Source: Sulfurimonas sp. (lineage in GTDB: Bacteria > Campylobacterota > Campylobacteria > Campylobacterales > Sulfurimonadaceae). Taken from it: a stretch of DNA of 64,000 bases. The notes beneath the pieces are model-generated. The model made no database searches, had not been told where the DNA came from, and saw nothing but the letters and a program-made list of their open reading frames with translations. Both the position numbers and the translations under genes were made by a program. Below are positions 6,215-54,896 of the stretch, piece by piece. Where the stretch lies: NCBI RefSeq assembly GCF_028694605.1, contig NZ_JAQVKP010000001.1, positions 1 to 64,000 on the forward strand, given 5' to 3'. How positions within the stretch are numbered: position 1 is the stretch's first letter; each line of letters opens with the position of its first letter.

Positions 6215-7369
6215 ATGTCGTTAATTACAAATGGCACAAAATCCTTTAAAAAAGGAGCAAGAGTGCAAAACATAAAAGCCTCTATAATCAATAGAGAAAA
6301 TAGAAAATATTGGTATGTAATGTACCATGTGTATTTTGAAAACGGCACTGTTAAAAAAGTTGAAGAGAGTTCTAAAGTTTTAAAAACAGAAAAAACTCTT
6401 AAGTATATGCAAACGAAATATCTGCCTGCATGGATTTCTAAAAAACAGAATGAATTATCTTTGCAAAAATTTGAGAGCAAGAAGTTTTCATGTTTTTTTC
6501 AAAAATATCTGATTGAGCATGATACAGATAAAGGTTTTTTAAACAGATTACCAATTTATCGCAAAGTTGTTCAATATTTTGGAGATTTTGAAGTCTCTAA
6601 AATTAATCGGCAGATGGTAAAAGACTTTTTGTTCTCTCTTGGAGATATAAAAAATGATAGCAAAAAGAAATATCTCACTTGTATCAAAGGTGTTTTAGAT
6701 ATTGCACTAGATAGTGAACTGATTTCTAAAAATGTAGCAAAAGATATCATATTTGCAAAAGAAGCCAAAGAAGCTATAAATCCGTTTTCGACTGATGAAA
6801 TATTGCTACTCTTAAAAAATGCAGATGATATGCTTAAGAATTACCTTGGTATTGCATTTTATACAGGCATGCGGAGCGGAGAGATATTGGGACTTATGCA
6901 TGGTGATATTTTATCCAATAAGATATCAGTTAAGCGTTCTATCTCAAGAGGAAACATAACTTCACCTAAAACGATAGGGAGCATAAGAGATATCCCAATG
7001 TTTGAAAGCGTCAAACCGTTTCTGAGAGAACAGATAAAACAAAGTTCTAAGTCTTTATATCTATTCAACCAAAACGGTACAAATATAGATGATATTTCTT
7101 TTTTTAGATATCGCTGGAGAGAGTTGCTAAAAGCTTGCAATATACCTTATAGAACTATCTATAACACCAGGCACACTTTTATAACTGCAATGTTGAATAG
7201 TGGTAAGTTTAAGATTATGGATATCGCTGCGATCGTAGGACATACATCACCGCAAATGATTATGACTAGATATGCAGGGTTTATTAAAGAAAATCATCTG
7301 AAAATTGATACTCATTTAGAAATCTTTAGCGACACTTTTAGCGACAGTTTAAAATTTAAGATTGATTGA
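6215..7369 (+). CDS. Tyrosine site-specific recombinase (integrase)
   Basis: Catalytic patterns TGMRSGEILGL, RHTFIT, VGHTSPQMIMTRYAGF. Confidence 0.92.
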   Translation: MSLITNGTKSFKKGARVQNIKASIINRENRKYWYVMYHVYFENGTVKKVEESSKVLKTEKTLKYMQTKYLPAWISKKQNELSLQKFESKKFSCFFQKYLIEHDTDKGFLNRLPIYRKVVQYFGDFEVSKINRQMVKDFLFSLGDIKNDSKKKYLTCIKGVLDIALDSELISKNVAKDIIFAKEAKEAINPFSTDEILLLLKNADDMLKNYLGIAFYTGMRSGEILGLMHGDILSNKISVKRSISRGNITSPKTIGSIRDIPMFESVKPFLREQIKQSSKSLYLFNQNGTNIDDISFFRYRWRELLKACNIPYRTIYNTRHTFITAMLNSGKFKIMDIAAIVGHTSPQMIMTRYAGFIKENHLKIDTHLEIFSDTFSDSLKFKID

Positions 7370-7393
7370 CAAGGCTCCAAAAGTGCCTTCTGA

Positions 7394-7483
7394 TGGTGGA
7401 TAGGGAGGGATTTGAACCCTCGGTACGGTTACCCGTACGCATCCTTAGCAGGGATGTGGTATCGGCCACTCACCCACCTATCC
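7394..7483 (-). tRNA. tRNA-Ser(GCT)
   Basis: Minus strand GGATAGG...CATCC-CTGCTAA-GGATG...long variable arm GTACGG/CCGTAC...GAGGG-TTCAAAT-CCCTC...CCTATCC-ACCA. Confidence 0.93.
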
Positions 7484-49653: not shown

Positions 49654-50526
49654 TTAAATTTTCGTCACTATCGGATTGAAAGCTTTGCTTGAGAGCAATA
49701 CTTTATCGCCGATGTTTAGATTTTTTATATCTTTTTGTGTTGCCGTAATTTTTATAATTTCATTGTGAGACAAAACTTTTACAATATACAAAATATCATT
49801 TTTTTCTATACTAAGAATCTCGCCTACTATCTTAAACTTGCCGCTTAGGTTCTGATTTGCAAATACTTTTGCAGGAGAGCCGTCGTCTGTAATACTACCA
49901 GATGAGATTTTAAAAACACGGTTTGAGAGTTTAAAAACTTCACTTATATCGTGAGATACCAAGATGGAAGTGATACCGAATTTTTTATGGACAGATGCCA
50001 GCTCCTCTTGAAGTTTGAGCCGCATGGAGCTATCAAGTGCCGAGAGCGGTTCGTCAAGAAGAAGTATTTTAGGGCCATTCATCAAAGACCGCGCCACCGC
50101 GATTCTCTGCTTTTGCCCTCCGCTTAGATGATCTGGTTTCATAGAAGAGAGATTTTGTATCTCCATGATTTCAAGTATCTCATCCACTTTTTTTGTCTCT
50201 TTCTTATCTTTGAGGGCAAACTCCAAGTTCTGCCTCACGCTCATATTTGGAAAAAGCGCATAGTCTTGAAATACAAACCCGACATTTCGCTTTTGCGGCG
50301 GCAGGTTTATATTTTTTGCACTGTCAAACCAAACAACCCCGTCCACAACAATCGTTCCGCTCTGCGGAGTCTCAAGCCCGGCGATAATGCGCAAAAGCGT
50401 AGTTTTCCCGCTCCCGCTCTTTCCAAAAAGCGTCAAAAAATCCCCGTCATGTATCTCTTTGTTTACCTCTAAAACTATCTCCCCGTCCGCAGTGTTTAGT
50501 GTTTTTTTGATGTTTATAGCTATCAT
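49654..50526 (-). CDS. modC: Molybdate ABC transporter ATP-binding protein
   Basis: GKSGSGKTTLLRIIAGLE, LSGGQKQRIAVARSL, LLLDEPLSALD, C-terminal TOBE. Confidence 0.9.
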   Translation of the reverse strand: MIAINIKKTLNTADGEIVLEVNKEIHDGDFLTLFGKSGSGKTTLLRIIAGLETPQSGTIVVDGVVWFDSAKNINLPPQKRNVGFVFQDYALFPNMSVRQNLEFALKDKKETKKVDEILEIMEIQNLSSMKPDHLSGGQKQRIAVARSLMNGPKILLLDEPLSALDSSMRLKLQEELASVHKKFGITSILVSHDISEVFKLSNRVFKISSGSITDDGSPAKVFANQNLSGKFKIVGEILSIEKNDILYIVKVLSHNEIIKITATQKDIKNLNIGDKVLLSSKAFNPIVTKI

Positions 50527-50597: not shown

Positions 50598-50984
50598 CTA
50601 TTCAAAATCCATATAATAAAACTCATCTTTTACAAACTCTTCAAGCAGTTCAAGATTTTTAAAATCTATCTTTTGATTTACAAAATATGTCATAGCTTGG
50701 AGTTCTTTATCTTCTAGCATAAGTGTTATCTCATCTCTATCATAATGCTCTGGATACCCCTCAAGCATATCAAGATGACTAAGTATCTTTTCATCGATTT
50801 GATAAGCTTCCCCCTTGATGATTTTGCCTTGACCTTTTTGATTTATAAGGTATGGATAGGCTTTTACAACATTTACCATAGGATATTTTTCTTTTGTGGT
50901 TGCATTGCCTATAAACTTTGCACCATCTAAAAAGTGATGGTTTTCAAAGCTTTTTTTGAGGGTTCCATAAACAAAGAGGGTCAT
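50598..50984 (-). CDS. Gamma-glutamylcyclotransferase-like protein
   Basis: LFVYGTLKKSFENHHFL...GEAYQIDEKILSHLDMLEGYPEHY. Confidence 0.85.
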   Translation of the reverse strand: MTLFVYGTLKKSFENHHFLDGAKFIGNATTKEKYPMVNVVKAYPYLINQKGQGKIIKGEAYQIDEKILSHLDMLEGYPEHYDRDEITLMLEDKELQAMTYFVNQKIDFKNLELLEEFVKDEFYYMDFE

Positions 50985-50986
50985 AA

Positions 50987-51592
50987 TTAATGCCTAATTG
51001 AAAATACAACTGAAGCATAAACATCTTTGTCATTTTCACTATATCTTTCGTAGTATGGTTCAACACATAAACCTTTTTTAGAAACTATATTTTTAGTTTG
51101 TTGGAAAAAATTATTTATTTGTTTATCTATCTTATTTACTGCATCATTTTTATAAACACTATTCATATAAAACGCTATCAGTCCACAGCGGATTGATGAT
51201 TCAGATGATTTTCTATTAAGAGTTTCACAAATTCTATTTACATCCTCTTCAATATTTGCGAATTTATACACACGATGCTTTACTTCAATGATTGCTCTAG
51301 GATCTCCTTTTGCCCACCATACAACTATGTCAAATCTTCCATTTGCTCTTATTTTTGAAGGAACTCTACCTGTGCCTTTAGCATTAGAACTATGTAATGT
51401 TTTTTCTACATTATCTTCAAGTGTTACAAATTTATTTTTATCAATATTGGCAATTTTTTCAGCTATTTTTACAGTTAATAAATATTCTGGTGCATTCCAT
51501 AACCATTCGTTTCCACTCCATTCTAAGTATGTTTCATGGGTATCTATAATAGCATCTAATGTGGTATTTATGAGTTCGTCTTTAGTTATCAT
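50987..51592 (-). CDS. Putative PD-(D/E)XK nuclease
   Basis: GRFDIVVWWAKGDPRAIIEVKHRVYKF fits D-x(n)-ExK core. Confidence 0.6.
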   Translation of the reverse strand: MITKDELINTTLDAIIDTHETYLEWSGNEWLWNAPEYLLTVKIAEKIANIDKNKFVTLEDNVEKTLHSSNAKGTGRVPSKIRANGRFDIVVWWAKGDPRAIIEVKHRVYKFANIEEDVNRICETLNRKSSESSIRCGLIAFYMNSVYKNDAVNKIDKQINNFFQQTKNIVSKKGLCVEPYYERYSENDKDVYASVVFSIRH

Positions 51593-52251
51593 TTCACTAC
51601 ACTTTCAATAGCTTCAAACTGCTTTCTTTCAATACTTCTGCTTTGCATACTATTAAAAATATCCTCTCCCAATATTTCAACGGCTTGTTGTTTTGAAATT
51701 TGTTTACTTTTTTTGTAAAAGTTGTCAATAACTTTTATATTTACATAAAAATCTCCATATTCATCTTCAAAAGTTACAAAATTTTCATCATCTTTGACTA
51801 TTTCAAAAATTCCATAAATACCTGATTCCACTAAAGGCACAATATTTTCATTTTCATCAGTTCTTTGTTGAATTGTTCTTTTATCTTCACTTACTTTAAT
51901 GATACCTCTTTCTCCCTCTTTCATTTGTAAAGAAATATCAGTATTCTTATTAATTGACCATTGAATAATCTCTTCATCATTTAGATTTAAAATGGTTTCA
52001 TTAAAGGCATATTCTGGAATATCATCTCCCCATTTTTGTGGATTAGAAATCAACATCCAAAATCTTTTATTTTTTTCTTTAATTAATTTTCTTCGTTCAA
52101 TATGCTCTATTATCTCATCTTTGATATTATCAAAAACATCTGCACCATGTTTTGAAACAACAAACATCTCTATTTGCTCGAATGTTTCATCATCCTTGTC
52201 AATTTTACTTTTTGCTATTTGAACTAACAATTTTAAATCTTCATTTTTCAT
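51589..52251 (-). CDS. EVE-like (PUA/YTH-fold) domain protein
   Basis: KRFWMLISNPQKWGDDI...IIQWSINKNTDISLQMKEGERGIIKVSE...SGIYGIFEIV; 4-bp overlap with the nuclease gene. Confidence 0.55.
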   Translation of the reverse strand: MKNEDLKLLVQIAKSKIDKDDETFEQIEMFVVSKHGADVFDNIKDEIIEHIERRKLIKEKNKRFWMLISNPQKWGDDIPEYAFNETILNLNDEEIIQWSINKNTDISLQMKEGERGIIKVSEDKRTIQQRTDENENIVPLVESGIYGIFEIVKDDENFVTFEDEYGDFYVNIKVIDNFYKKSKQISKQQAVEILGEDIFNSMQSRSIERKQFEAIESVVK

Positions 52252-52794
52252 CTATTCCTCCCAACTTTTTTCACTCAAAGCCTTTTGAACAAACTCTATA
52301 CTTACAAGGTTGTCACTAACCTTTGCCAACTCTATAGCCTCATACAAACTTATATCCCTATCAGTCTCTCCTAAGATATGTATTATATGATTTTCTATTG
52401 GCTCATAAAGCTCGGCAGTTGCATAAATATCTCTTGCTACCTCTTTAAATTCTACCACTTTTACTTTTGATGCTAAGGCTTGTTGCATTATCATTAAAGC
52501 ACTTTTGTCAAGCCCTTTTGCTAAACAGATAGTTTGATTATCTTGTGTAAAATGCAAAGCCACTGCAAAATGTGTAGGATTTGTTACCACTAGATGAACT
52601 GGGTTTTTAGCTTCTTTTACTAAAATTTCACCAATTCTAAAAAAAGATTTTACAGCATGTGAGTGCTTTAGTTTTTTTAGCTCTTCCTTTTGCTCATCAC
52701 TTAAAGATTCTTCCATCTCCAAAGATTCTATTTTTGCTTCAATCTCTTCTATTACCTTATCTATCATAGGAATTGCTGGATTTTTTATCAACAT
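52252..52794 (-). CDS. Stand-alone FlhB/YscU C-terminal-like protein
   Basis: HLVVTNPTHFAVALHFTQDNQTICLAKGLDKSALMIMQQAL contains NPTH motif. Confidence 0.65.
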   Translation of the reverse strand: MLIKNPAIPMIDKVIEEIEAKIESLEMEESLSDEQKEELKKLKHSHAVKSFFRIGEILVKEAKNPVHLVVTNPTHFAVALHFTQDNQTICLAKGLDKSALMIMQQALASKVKVVEFKEVARDIYATAELYEPIENHIIHILGETDRDISLYEAIELAKVSDNLVSIEFVQKALSEKSWEE

Positions 52795-52888
52795 TTTGCA
52801 CCTCTTTGTTTTATAGCATTTTCTACCAAATTATATACTCATACATAGACACCTTTATGTCCACTTCAAAAACTTCTCTAAGGTTTTT

Positions 52889-53125
52889 TTAAACTGCCAC
52901 ACTTTCCAAATACAAAGTATCAGGGCATAAATCTTGACCGTTTTTCCATTGAATCGAGTCCATAAACGGTTTAACGGTTTTGAAGTAGGTTTTATCTTGA
53001 AGTTGTTTGAAAAAGCCTTTGTCAATATATGGCTTCATATCAAATATTTTATTTTCACCATTTTCAAAAGTAAGTAGTATGGTATAGTCGTCTTGTGCTA
53101 TTACTGCTTTTACTCGTGGGTTCAT
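52889..53125 (-). CDS. DUF2442 family protein
   Basis: VKAVIAQDDYTILLTFENGENKIFDMKPYIDKGFFKQLQD...IQWKNGQDLCPDTLY. Confidence 0.8.
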   Translation of the reverse strand: MNPRVKAVIAQDDYTILLTFENGENKIFDMKPYIDKGFFKQLQDKTYFKTVKPFMDSIQWKNGQDLCPDTLYLESVAV

Positions 53126-53136
53126 TTGATTTTCTC

Positions 53137-53406
53137 CTATTTTAAAGGGTCGATTTTAAATATCTCTTCACCGTTGATTGCAAGTTCCCAATCAGCCATA
53201 AGCTCATCTTGATGAATCTCTATCCAAGCAACTACAAGTTTTCTTTTGCTTGATTTCATAGTGCCTTCGAGAATCTCACCGTTGGGGATAGAAAACACCG
53301 CCTCTTCATCTTGATACTTCACATGAATATGAGGAATTTTGTGTTGTTTGTTATCAAAATAGTACATGGAGATAATAATCCCATAAAACATAGATATGAT
53401 TGCCAT
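53137..53406 (-). CDS. DUF4160 family protein
   Basis: FYGIIISMYYFDNKQHKIPHIHVKYQDEEAVFSIPNGEILEG. Confidence 0.8.
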   Translation of the reverse strand: MAIISMFYGIIISMYYFDNKQHKIPHIHVKYQDEEAVFSIPNGEILEGTMKSSKRKLVVAWIEIHQDELMADWELAINGEEIFKIDPLK

Positions 53407-53515
53407 TGTGTTTTTCCTTAGTTTAAGTTAAATTTTAGCTAAATATTTTTTAGAAGCTTTTGAAATATTCAAAGCTCATTCCAAAGTTTTTCTATTGGTT
53501 GCACTCTGGCGTTTT

Positions 53516-53926
53516 TTATCTCAAAAGATTATGTAAACTCTGCTTTTTCAAAGTCCTATAAACATCAAAGTCGCTATCGATACTTACGATATTTTTTATC
53601 CCCTCTTTATTTGCTATGTACATTAAAGTTGCATCCGCCAAATCCATAGGGATATCAAGATATTTCTCCATCATCACTCGTATGTTTGTTATCTCATTTT
53701 GAGGAATCTCATAAACATTTACCCCACCAAGCTCCACCCATTTTAAAAAATCAATCTGTACTTGTAGGTTAAAATCCAGCATATGAGAAACTTCGGTGAG
53801 AACTGCCCAAGAGGTGATGAGTTTGCCTTTGAAAGTTTTTAGAAACTCTAAAGATTTTTGATGAAACTTATCGCTTCTATCAAAAAGGGCTATGATAACT
53901 CCGCTGTCAATGAGTGTTTTTGTCAT
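53516..53926 (-). CDS. PIN-domain (VapC-like) toxin
   Basis: LIDSGVIIALFDRSDKFH, DLADATLMYIA, IVSIDSDFDVYR. Confidence 0.82.
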   Translation of the reverse strand: MTKTLIDSGVIIALFDRSDKFHQKSLEFLKTFKGKLITSWAVLTEVSHMLDFNLQVQIDFLKWVELGGVNVYEIPQNEITNIRVMMEKYLDIPMDLADATLMYIANKEGIKNIVSIDSDFDVYRTLKKQSLHNLLR

Positions 53927-54200
53927 GAAGTTTTGCTTTTAGTTTTTGTTTATAAGTAGTAGAGAGTGAGCCGTCATGACTTTCAAACTTTCCAAAAAGC
54001 TCCTTGCCGAGTTCGTAGGATGTTTTTTCTTTTGCCTCAGATTTGAGCATATCAAAATAGTAAACCAAAGCCTCTTTTATTATCTGGCTTTTTTGTTTTG
54101 AAAGTTGAGCAGATACAAGATTTAGCTGATTTTCAAGCATATTATCTAGTCTTACCGAAACCATAATTGTCTCCTGTTTTTGTATGACAGATTGTATCAC
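53907..54200 (-). CDS. Ribbon-helix-helix-like antitoxin
   Basis: MVSVRLDNMLENQLNLVSAQLSKQKSQIIKEALVYYFD; overlaps PIN gene. Confidence 0.7.
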   Translation of the reverse strand: MIQSVIQKQETIMVSVRLDNMLENQLNLVSAQLSKQKSQIIKEALVYYFDMLKSEAKEKTSYELGKELFGKFESHDGSLSTTYKQKLKAKLHDKNTH

Positions 54201-54215
54201 ACAAGAGTTAAAATT

Positions 54216-54896
54216 TTATCTAAACTCACTTTTCAGCATACTTTTATTGATAGCGTAAACAAAAAGCAAGATGGCAAAGGTGATGACAAAAAGGGTAAAA
54301 GCGTATTGGTTGGCAACTGCGTAGTTGAGTGATTCTACTTCATCGTAGATCGCTATGCTTGCTACTTTTGTCTCTCCCGCTATGTTTCCGCCGATCATTA
54401 AAACCACTCCGAACTCTCCTACCGTGTGGGCGAATGTGATGACTGATGCTGTGAGCAAAGAGGGTTTGATATTTGGAAGCAGAACAAACCAGAGAGTCTC
54501 GATGGGGCTTTTTCCAAGAGTAAATGAAGCCTCTTTTAGAGATTTTGAAAGAGCGGAAAAGCCGCTTTGGATGGGGTGAACCATAAAAGGGAGGCTAAAA
54601 ATAACGGATGCTACGATAAGTCCCTCAAAGCTAAAGACGAGTTTTATATCAAAAGTTTTATCAAGCCATGCGCCAAAACTGTTTTTTGGGCTAAAGGCAA
54701 GTAACATGTAAAAACCCAAAACAGAGGGAGGCAGTACTAAGGGCATTGATACCAATGCCTCGATGATAGGTTTAAATCTTGATTTTGTTTGTGATAGGTG
54801 GTACCCAAGCGGGATTCCTATACATAACAGTATGAGAGTAGTAATTGCCGCTAACTCAAATGTAAGCTTCATGGTTTGGATAAAATTTGCGTCCAC
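54216..54896 (-). CDS. modB: Molybdate ABC transporter permease
   Basis: LVLPPSVLGFYMLLAFSP, TVGEFGVVLMIGGNIAGETKVASIAIYD. Confidence 0.93.
   Translation of the reverse strand: MDANFIQTMKLTFELAAITTLILLCIGIPLGYHLSQTKSRFKPIIEALVSMPLVLPPSVLGFYMLLAFSPKNSFGAWLDKTFDIKLVFSFEGLIVASVIFSLPFMVHPIQSGFSALSKSLKEASFTLGKSPIETLWFVLLPNIKPSLLTASVITFAHTVGEFGVVLMIGGNIAGETKVASIAIYDEVESLNYAVANQYAFTLFVITFAILLFVYAINKSMLKSEFR

Follow-up and report, generated by a model that had tools for sequence, protein, structure and literature searches.

A possible split modification-dependent restriction module in Sulfurimonas, with an EVE-like protein and a relative of phage P2 Tin

Two small overlapping genes in Sulfurimonas, one predicted to read modified DNA and the other to cut it, raise the question of whether they form a restriction system in two parts or are chance neighbors. 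The pair lies in a window of 64,000 nucleotides, the first 64,000 positions of contig NZ_JAQVKP010000001.1. A first-pass annotation had proposed that the genes make up a distinct two-gene system, in which an EVE-like protein (here A) recognizes modified bases and a PD-(D/E)XK nuclease (here B) does the cutting. Our leading explanation, held tentatively, is narrower: A and B would be a split modification-dependent restriction module with a Tin-family nuclease, a one-off version of the EVE-PD-(D/E)XK type IV theme.

An overlapping pair in a variable insert

Both genes are open reading frames on the minus strand, placed as originally annotated: A at 51589-52251 (220 aa) and B at 50987-51592 (201 aa). 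The stop of A and the start of B share the ATGA at 51589-51592, a 4-bp overlap through which the two are likely to be translationally coupled. They are part of an insert (50598-54200, minus strand) that also holds a PIN toxin pair, DUF4160 and DUF2442 genes, an FlhB-like gene and a GGACT gene, and that is flanked by modB (54216-54896) and modC (49654-50526). In five congeners (G004, G602, G603, G392 and G046) modB and modC are contiguous; in others the junction is occupied by a PIN toxin pair (G463), a RhuM-like gene (G447) or an ATPase gene (G039). The junction thus holds variable accessory genes.

Composition sets A and B apart within the insert. Their GC3 values, 0.154 and 0.168, are the first and third lowest of the 58 ORFs in the window; the genes on either side of the pair have 0.24 and 0.27. 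Because the genes overlap, match in GC3 and share the modB/modC insert, we regard A as tied to B. Immediately upstream of A, the FlhB C-terminal-like gene (52252-52794, minus strand; Pfam Bac_export_2, 1.2e-17) is probably a neighbor outside the module; a search of 80 congeners found FlhB itself only and no close copy of this gene. On the other side, the gamma-glutamyl cyclotransferase-like gene (50598-50984, minus strand; Pfam GGACT, 2.6e-26) starts 2 bp after the stop of B. Only 12 of 79 relatives have a member of its family; in Sulfurovum, too, a GGACT gene sits beside B, though on the other side of it (L024:7550-7933 and L028:6136-6516). Promoter and terminator scans gave no excess over shuffled sequence. 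Elsewhere in the window, an MkoC-like helicase gene of very high AT content, accompanied by an HTH gene (82-2329), and a phage-type integrase beside tRNA-Ser (6215-7483) are possibly a separate mobile island.

A Tin-family nuclease and a divergent EVE-like protein

B has no good match in Pfam or NCBIfam; its family is nevertheless widespread, with homologues in Campylobacterota, alpha- and betaproteobacteria, a KSB1 bacterium, Dehalococcoidales and a Thermoplasmata archaeon. The nuclease motif that first drew attention to B is present, with a spacer of seven residues rather than the nine originally counted (GRFDIVVW-WAKGDPR-AIIEVKHR). An alignment of 13 homologues, reaching down to 25% identity, leaves E36, E59, D88, E103, K105 and D117/R120 invariant; invariance of the first five across this set takes the motif beyond chance. 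The AlphaFold2 model of B (pLDDT 89.6) has helices at 4-26, 36-48 and 112-126 and strands at 55-61, 86-92, 98-105 and 136-146. This is the alpha-beta-beta-beta-alpha-beta order of the PD-(D/E)XK core, as read along the chain and not as the spatial order of strands, and the catalytic-type residues fall on consecutive strands, D88 on 86-92 and E103/K105 on 98-105. Foldseek was weak: it returned some viral PD-(D/E)XK models, BsaXI and DrdV (both restriction enzymes) ranked low, and nothing in the PDB matched at E<=0.001. Motif invariance, element order and the Tin homology described below all favor the assignment proposed at the outset, and B is predicted to be a probable PD-(D/E)XK DNA-cutting enzyme. 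The catalytic form is patchy, occurring in six of 99 relatives, with one copy degenerate. A separate branch of the family, lacking the catalytic D and E, adjoins liv transporter genes in several genera (L014:5834-6493, L113:3760-4419 and L114:3634-4410); it is a vertically inherited paralogue and probably inactive.

The relationship of B to Tin of phage P2 is, to us, a more useful result than the split A/B variant itself. The PADLOC Tin model matches B at 1.9e-6 and matches five of six B-family members, the best at 1.1e-10. When the 13-member B profile was compared with P2 Tin (AF063097), the alignment ran over 168 columns with a score of 53.5 and a probability of 94%; the maximum among 150 shuffles of Tin was 21.4. 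The Tin residues EYVATV, GRIDI and AIEVK align to the B family and supply the full E, D and E-x-K set; the P2 tin gene in which this PD-(D/E)XK-type set is found lies at L042:2185-2946. B is homologous to P2 Tin, which itself has the look of a PD-(D/E)XK protein. A limited literature search found no paper that calls Tin a nuclease. Descriptions of Tin have it act on the T-even single-stranded-DNA-binding protein and do not present it as a restriction enzyme. A broader proposal, plausible though we would not yet lean on it, is that the Tin family, P2 Tin included, consists of PD-(D/E)XK nucleases, that exclusion of T-even phages by P2 includes a nuclease step, and that the Sulfurimonas pair joins such a nuclease to an EVE reader, giving a modification-dependent defense in two parts. 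Should both B and P2 Tin prove to be nucleases, two point mutants would be enough to put to the test the old puzzle of how T-even replication is poisoned by Tin.

The folds expected of the two proteins fared unequally in modeling: B gives the confident model with nuclease element order described above, while the single-sequence AlphaFold2 model of A is unreliable, at a pLDDT of only 47. The helical N-terminus of A (about residues 3-60) is taken from that model as a hint only; weak matches to this segment (E 0.0095 or worse) were judged to be chance, and matches to Pfam ESCRT-II and SICA are likewise at chance level. The remainder (about residues 60-220) is a divergent EVE-like domain, supported by comparison of the family profile with genuine EVE domains. 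A itself does not match Pfam EVE (PF01878); its best relative does so end to end, at E=0.0011 and 19.4 bits, under the cut-off of 23. The EVE-like pattern originally picked out in A is present and recurs in six relatives, and P71, W98, G113, D123, R125, G144, Y146 and E150 are invariant. The A-family profile scored 39 over 128 columns against a hand-picked set of three EVE sequences, one of which, a Sinorhizobium EVE-McrB protein found by tblastn with an A relative, has a real Pfam EVE match (1.4e-8). In the controls, 100 column shuffles never exceeded 17, and unrelated ORFs, each scored by itself, never exceeded 23; single EVE sequences score at or near background against the A-family profile. 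Searching PDB sequences with the profiles of A and B produced no relevant match, and A matched no solved EVE structure.

Relatives of A are few. Two further genomes among 99 relatives have matches, and a profile search of 397 genomes sampled from the phylum found five besides the window's own. Their architectures point to type IV restriction: the EVE-like domain is fused to GmrSD_N in L015 and L038, to HNH beside a helicase in L016, and to a McrB-like AAA domain in L039; L040 is a solo EVE-like protein and L041 is short. PADLOC identifies the L015 protein as NsnA and the HNH part of L016 as mREase_IV, and this HNH matches EcoKMcrA (6ghc). Each of the two NsnA-like GmrSD_N fusions (L015:5828-7384 and L038:5038-6606), in which the EVE-like domain is N-terminal, is followed by an ATPase gene. 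L127, an HNH protein of Priestia, was excluded from the relatives of A because its N-terminus is another PUA-like domain. In three further proteins of the same phylum (L121 in G232, L123 in G180 and L124 in G314), an EVE-like N-terminus shares one chain with a SIDFWC...LEVKK or IDIM...VELKS motif; these are likely counterparts in which EVE and nuclease are fused. In VcaM4I, an EVE-HNH enzyme that flips the modified base, the flipped base is held by P24, W82 and Y130 (PMC7897488); set beside these as a list of residues, the invariant P71, W98 and Y146 of A offer a suggestive parallel. The idea of an EVE-like reader therefore stands on the profile comparison and on the relatives' fusions to type IV nucleases, and does not extend to a Pfam EVE match; A is predicted to be a probable reader of modified DNA.

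One module or two neighbors

Whether A and B belong together should be visible in other genomes. With some loci cut by contig ends, an HMM of the A domain had no match in the roughly 25 B loci from elsewhere, and the other A loci had no match to an HMM of B. Among the genomes searched, then, A and B stand together in this one only and lack co-conservation, an outcome named at the outset as one that would speak against a separate two-gene system. Neither gene turned up in viral contigs, phages or plasmids. The company that B keeps elsewhere is varied: regulators of the WYL-domain type near six homologues (L010, L012, L023, L024, L028 and L111, the label checked with Pfam for L012), transposases in L013 and L025, and, labeled by eye from sequence, a GmrSD_N-like gene with a type I methylase-like gene in L029 and large restriction-like genes in L034 and L035.

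In the split module that we tentatively favor, the EVE-like domain of A would flip a modified base, of 5mC or hmC type, from incoming phage DNA into its pocket; the same domain or the helical N-terminus would recruit or activate B at the DNA; and B, as a Tin-family PD-(D/E)XK enzyme, would cut the phage DNA or its replication intermediates. The ligand and its flipping, A-B contact and cutting are points that we infer, set beside the families, motifs and gene linkage observed. A reader domain and a nuclease in one protein or operon are what one looks for in a type IV system, and A and B, adjacent and overlapping, offer both as predicted functions. Against the module are the lack of a second genome with A beside B, the unreliable model of A and its missing sequence match to a solved EVE structure, and the weak Foldseek result for B. 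B homologues also mostly lack an EVE partner, so the B family can work without one. This last point leads to the main rival, a serious contender though a somewhat less probable one: B would be a stand-alone phage-exclusion protein like Tin, triggered for instance by a phage single-stranded-DNA-binding protein or by replication intermediates, with A an independent EVE neighbor or a mere modulator. The roughly 25 loci where B occurs without an EVE gene suit this account, as does the solo EVE-like protein of L040, which has no B; it is opposed by the ATGA overlap and by an unusual composition that, within the insert, only A and B share.

Two other accounts are improbable. B might be a nuclease toxin restrained by A, or by the GGACT protein, in a toxin-antitoxin or abortive-infection unit from which it is released when A senses modified DNA or RNA. 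PIN toxin pairs do occur in the insert and in the same junction of a relative, EVE domains are known from predicted toxin-antitoxin contexts (PMC7641849), and a GGACT gene, though rare in relatives, stands beside B in two lineages; yet many genomes have B by itself, with no constant antitoxin. It is similarly unlikely that A and B serve DNA metabolism or regulation rather than defense. The vertically spread branch of B that lacks D and E and adjoins the liv genes in several genera would fit such a role; the patchy catalytic form, the variable insertion site, the restriction genes near several B loci and the type IV architectures of the A family all argue the other way.

Relation to known type IV systems and to Tin

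Predicted type IV systems in which EVE is fused to PD-(D/E)XK, HNH, McrB or, rarely, GmrSD are already on record (PMC7641849); the present case, observed a single time, is a split form that uses a Tin-type nuclease. If A gates B, small nucleases that act by themselves in other genomes can be paired in trans with modification readers, and the many solo Tin-like genes of bacteria and archaea would become easier to annotate.

One close comparison is with the EVE fusions, VcaM4I among them. Like these, A and B combine an EVE-type reader with a nuclease, and HNH, McrB and GmrSD architectures recur among the relatives of A; unlike these, the two functions are encoded apart, the cutting enzyme belongs to the Tin family and the domain of A falls outside the Pfam EVE cut-off. 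Separation itself is shared with McrBC and GmrSD, which can also place reader and nuclease functions on separate adjacent genes, and GmrS and GmrD are described as split or fused (PMC4619093); in Pfam, A and B differ from both in having neither a GTPase/NTPase nor a GmrSD domain. Tin of P2 (PADLOC PDLC02359) shares with B the same E, D and E-x-K over the 168 aligned columns, whereas it is a prophage gene adjoining old, is longer, at 253 aa, and has no EVE partner.
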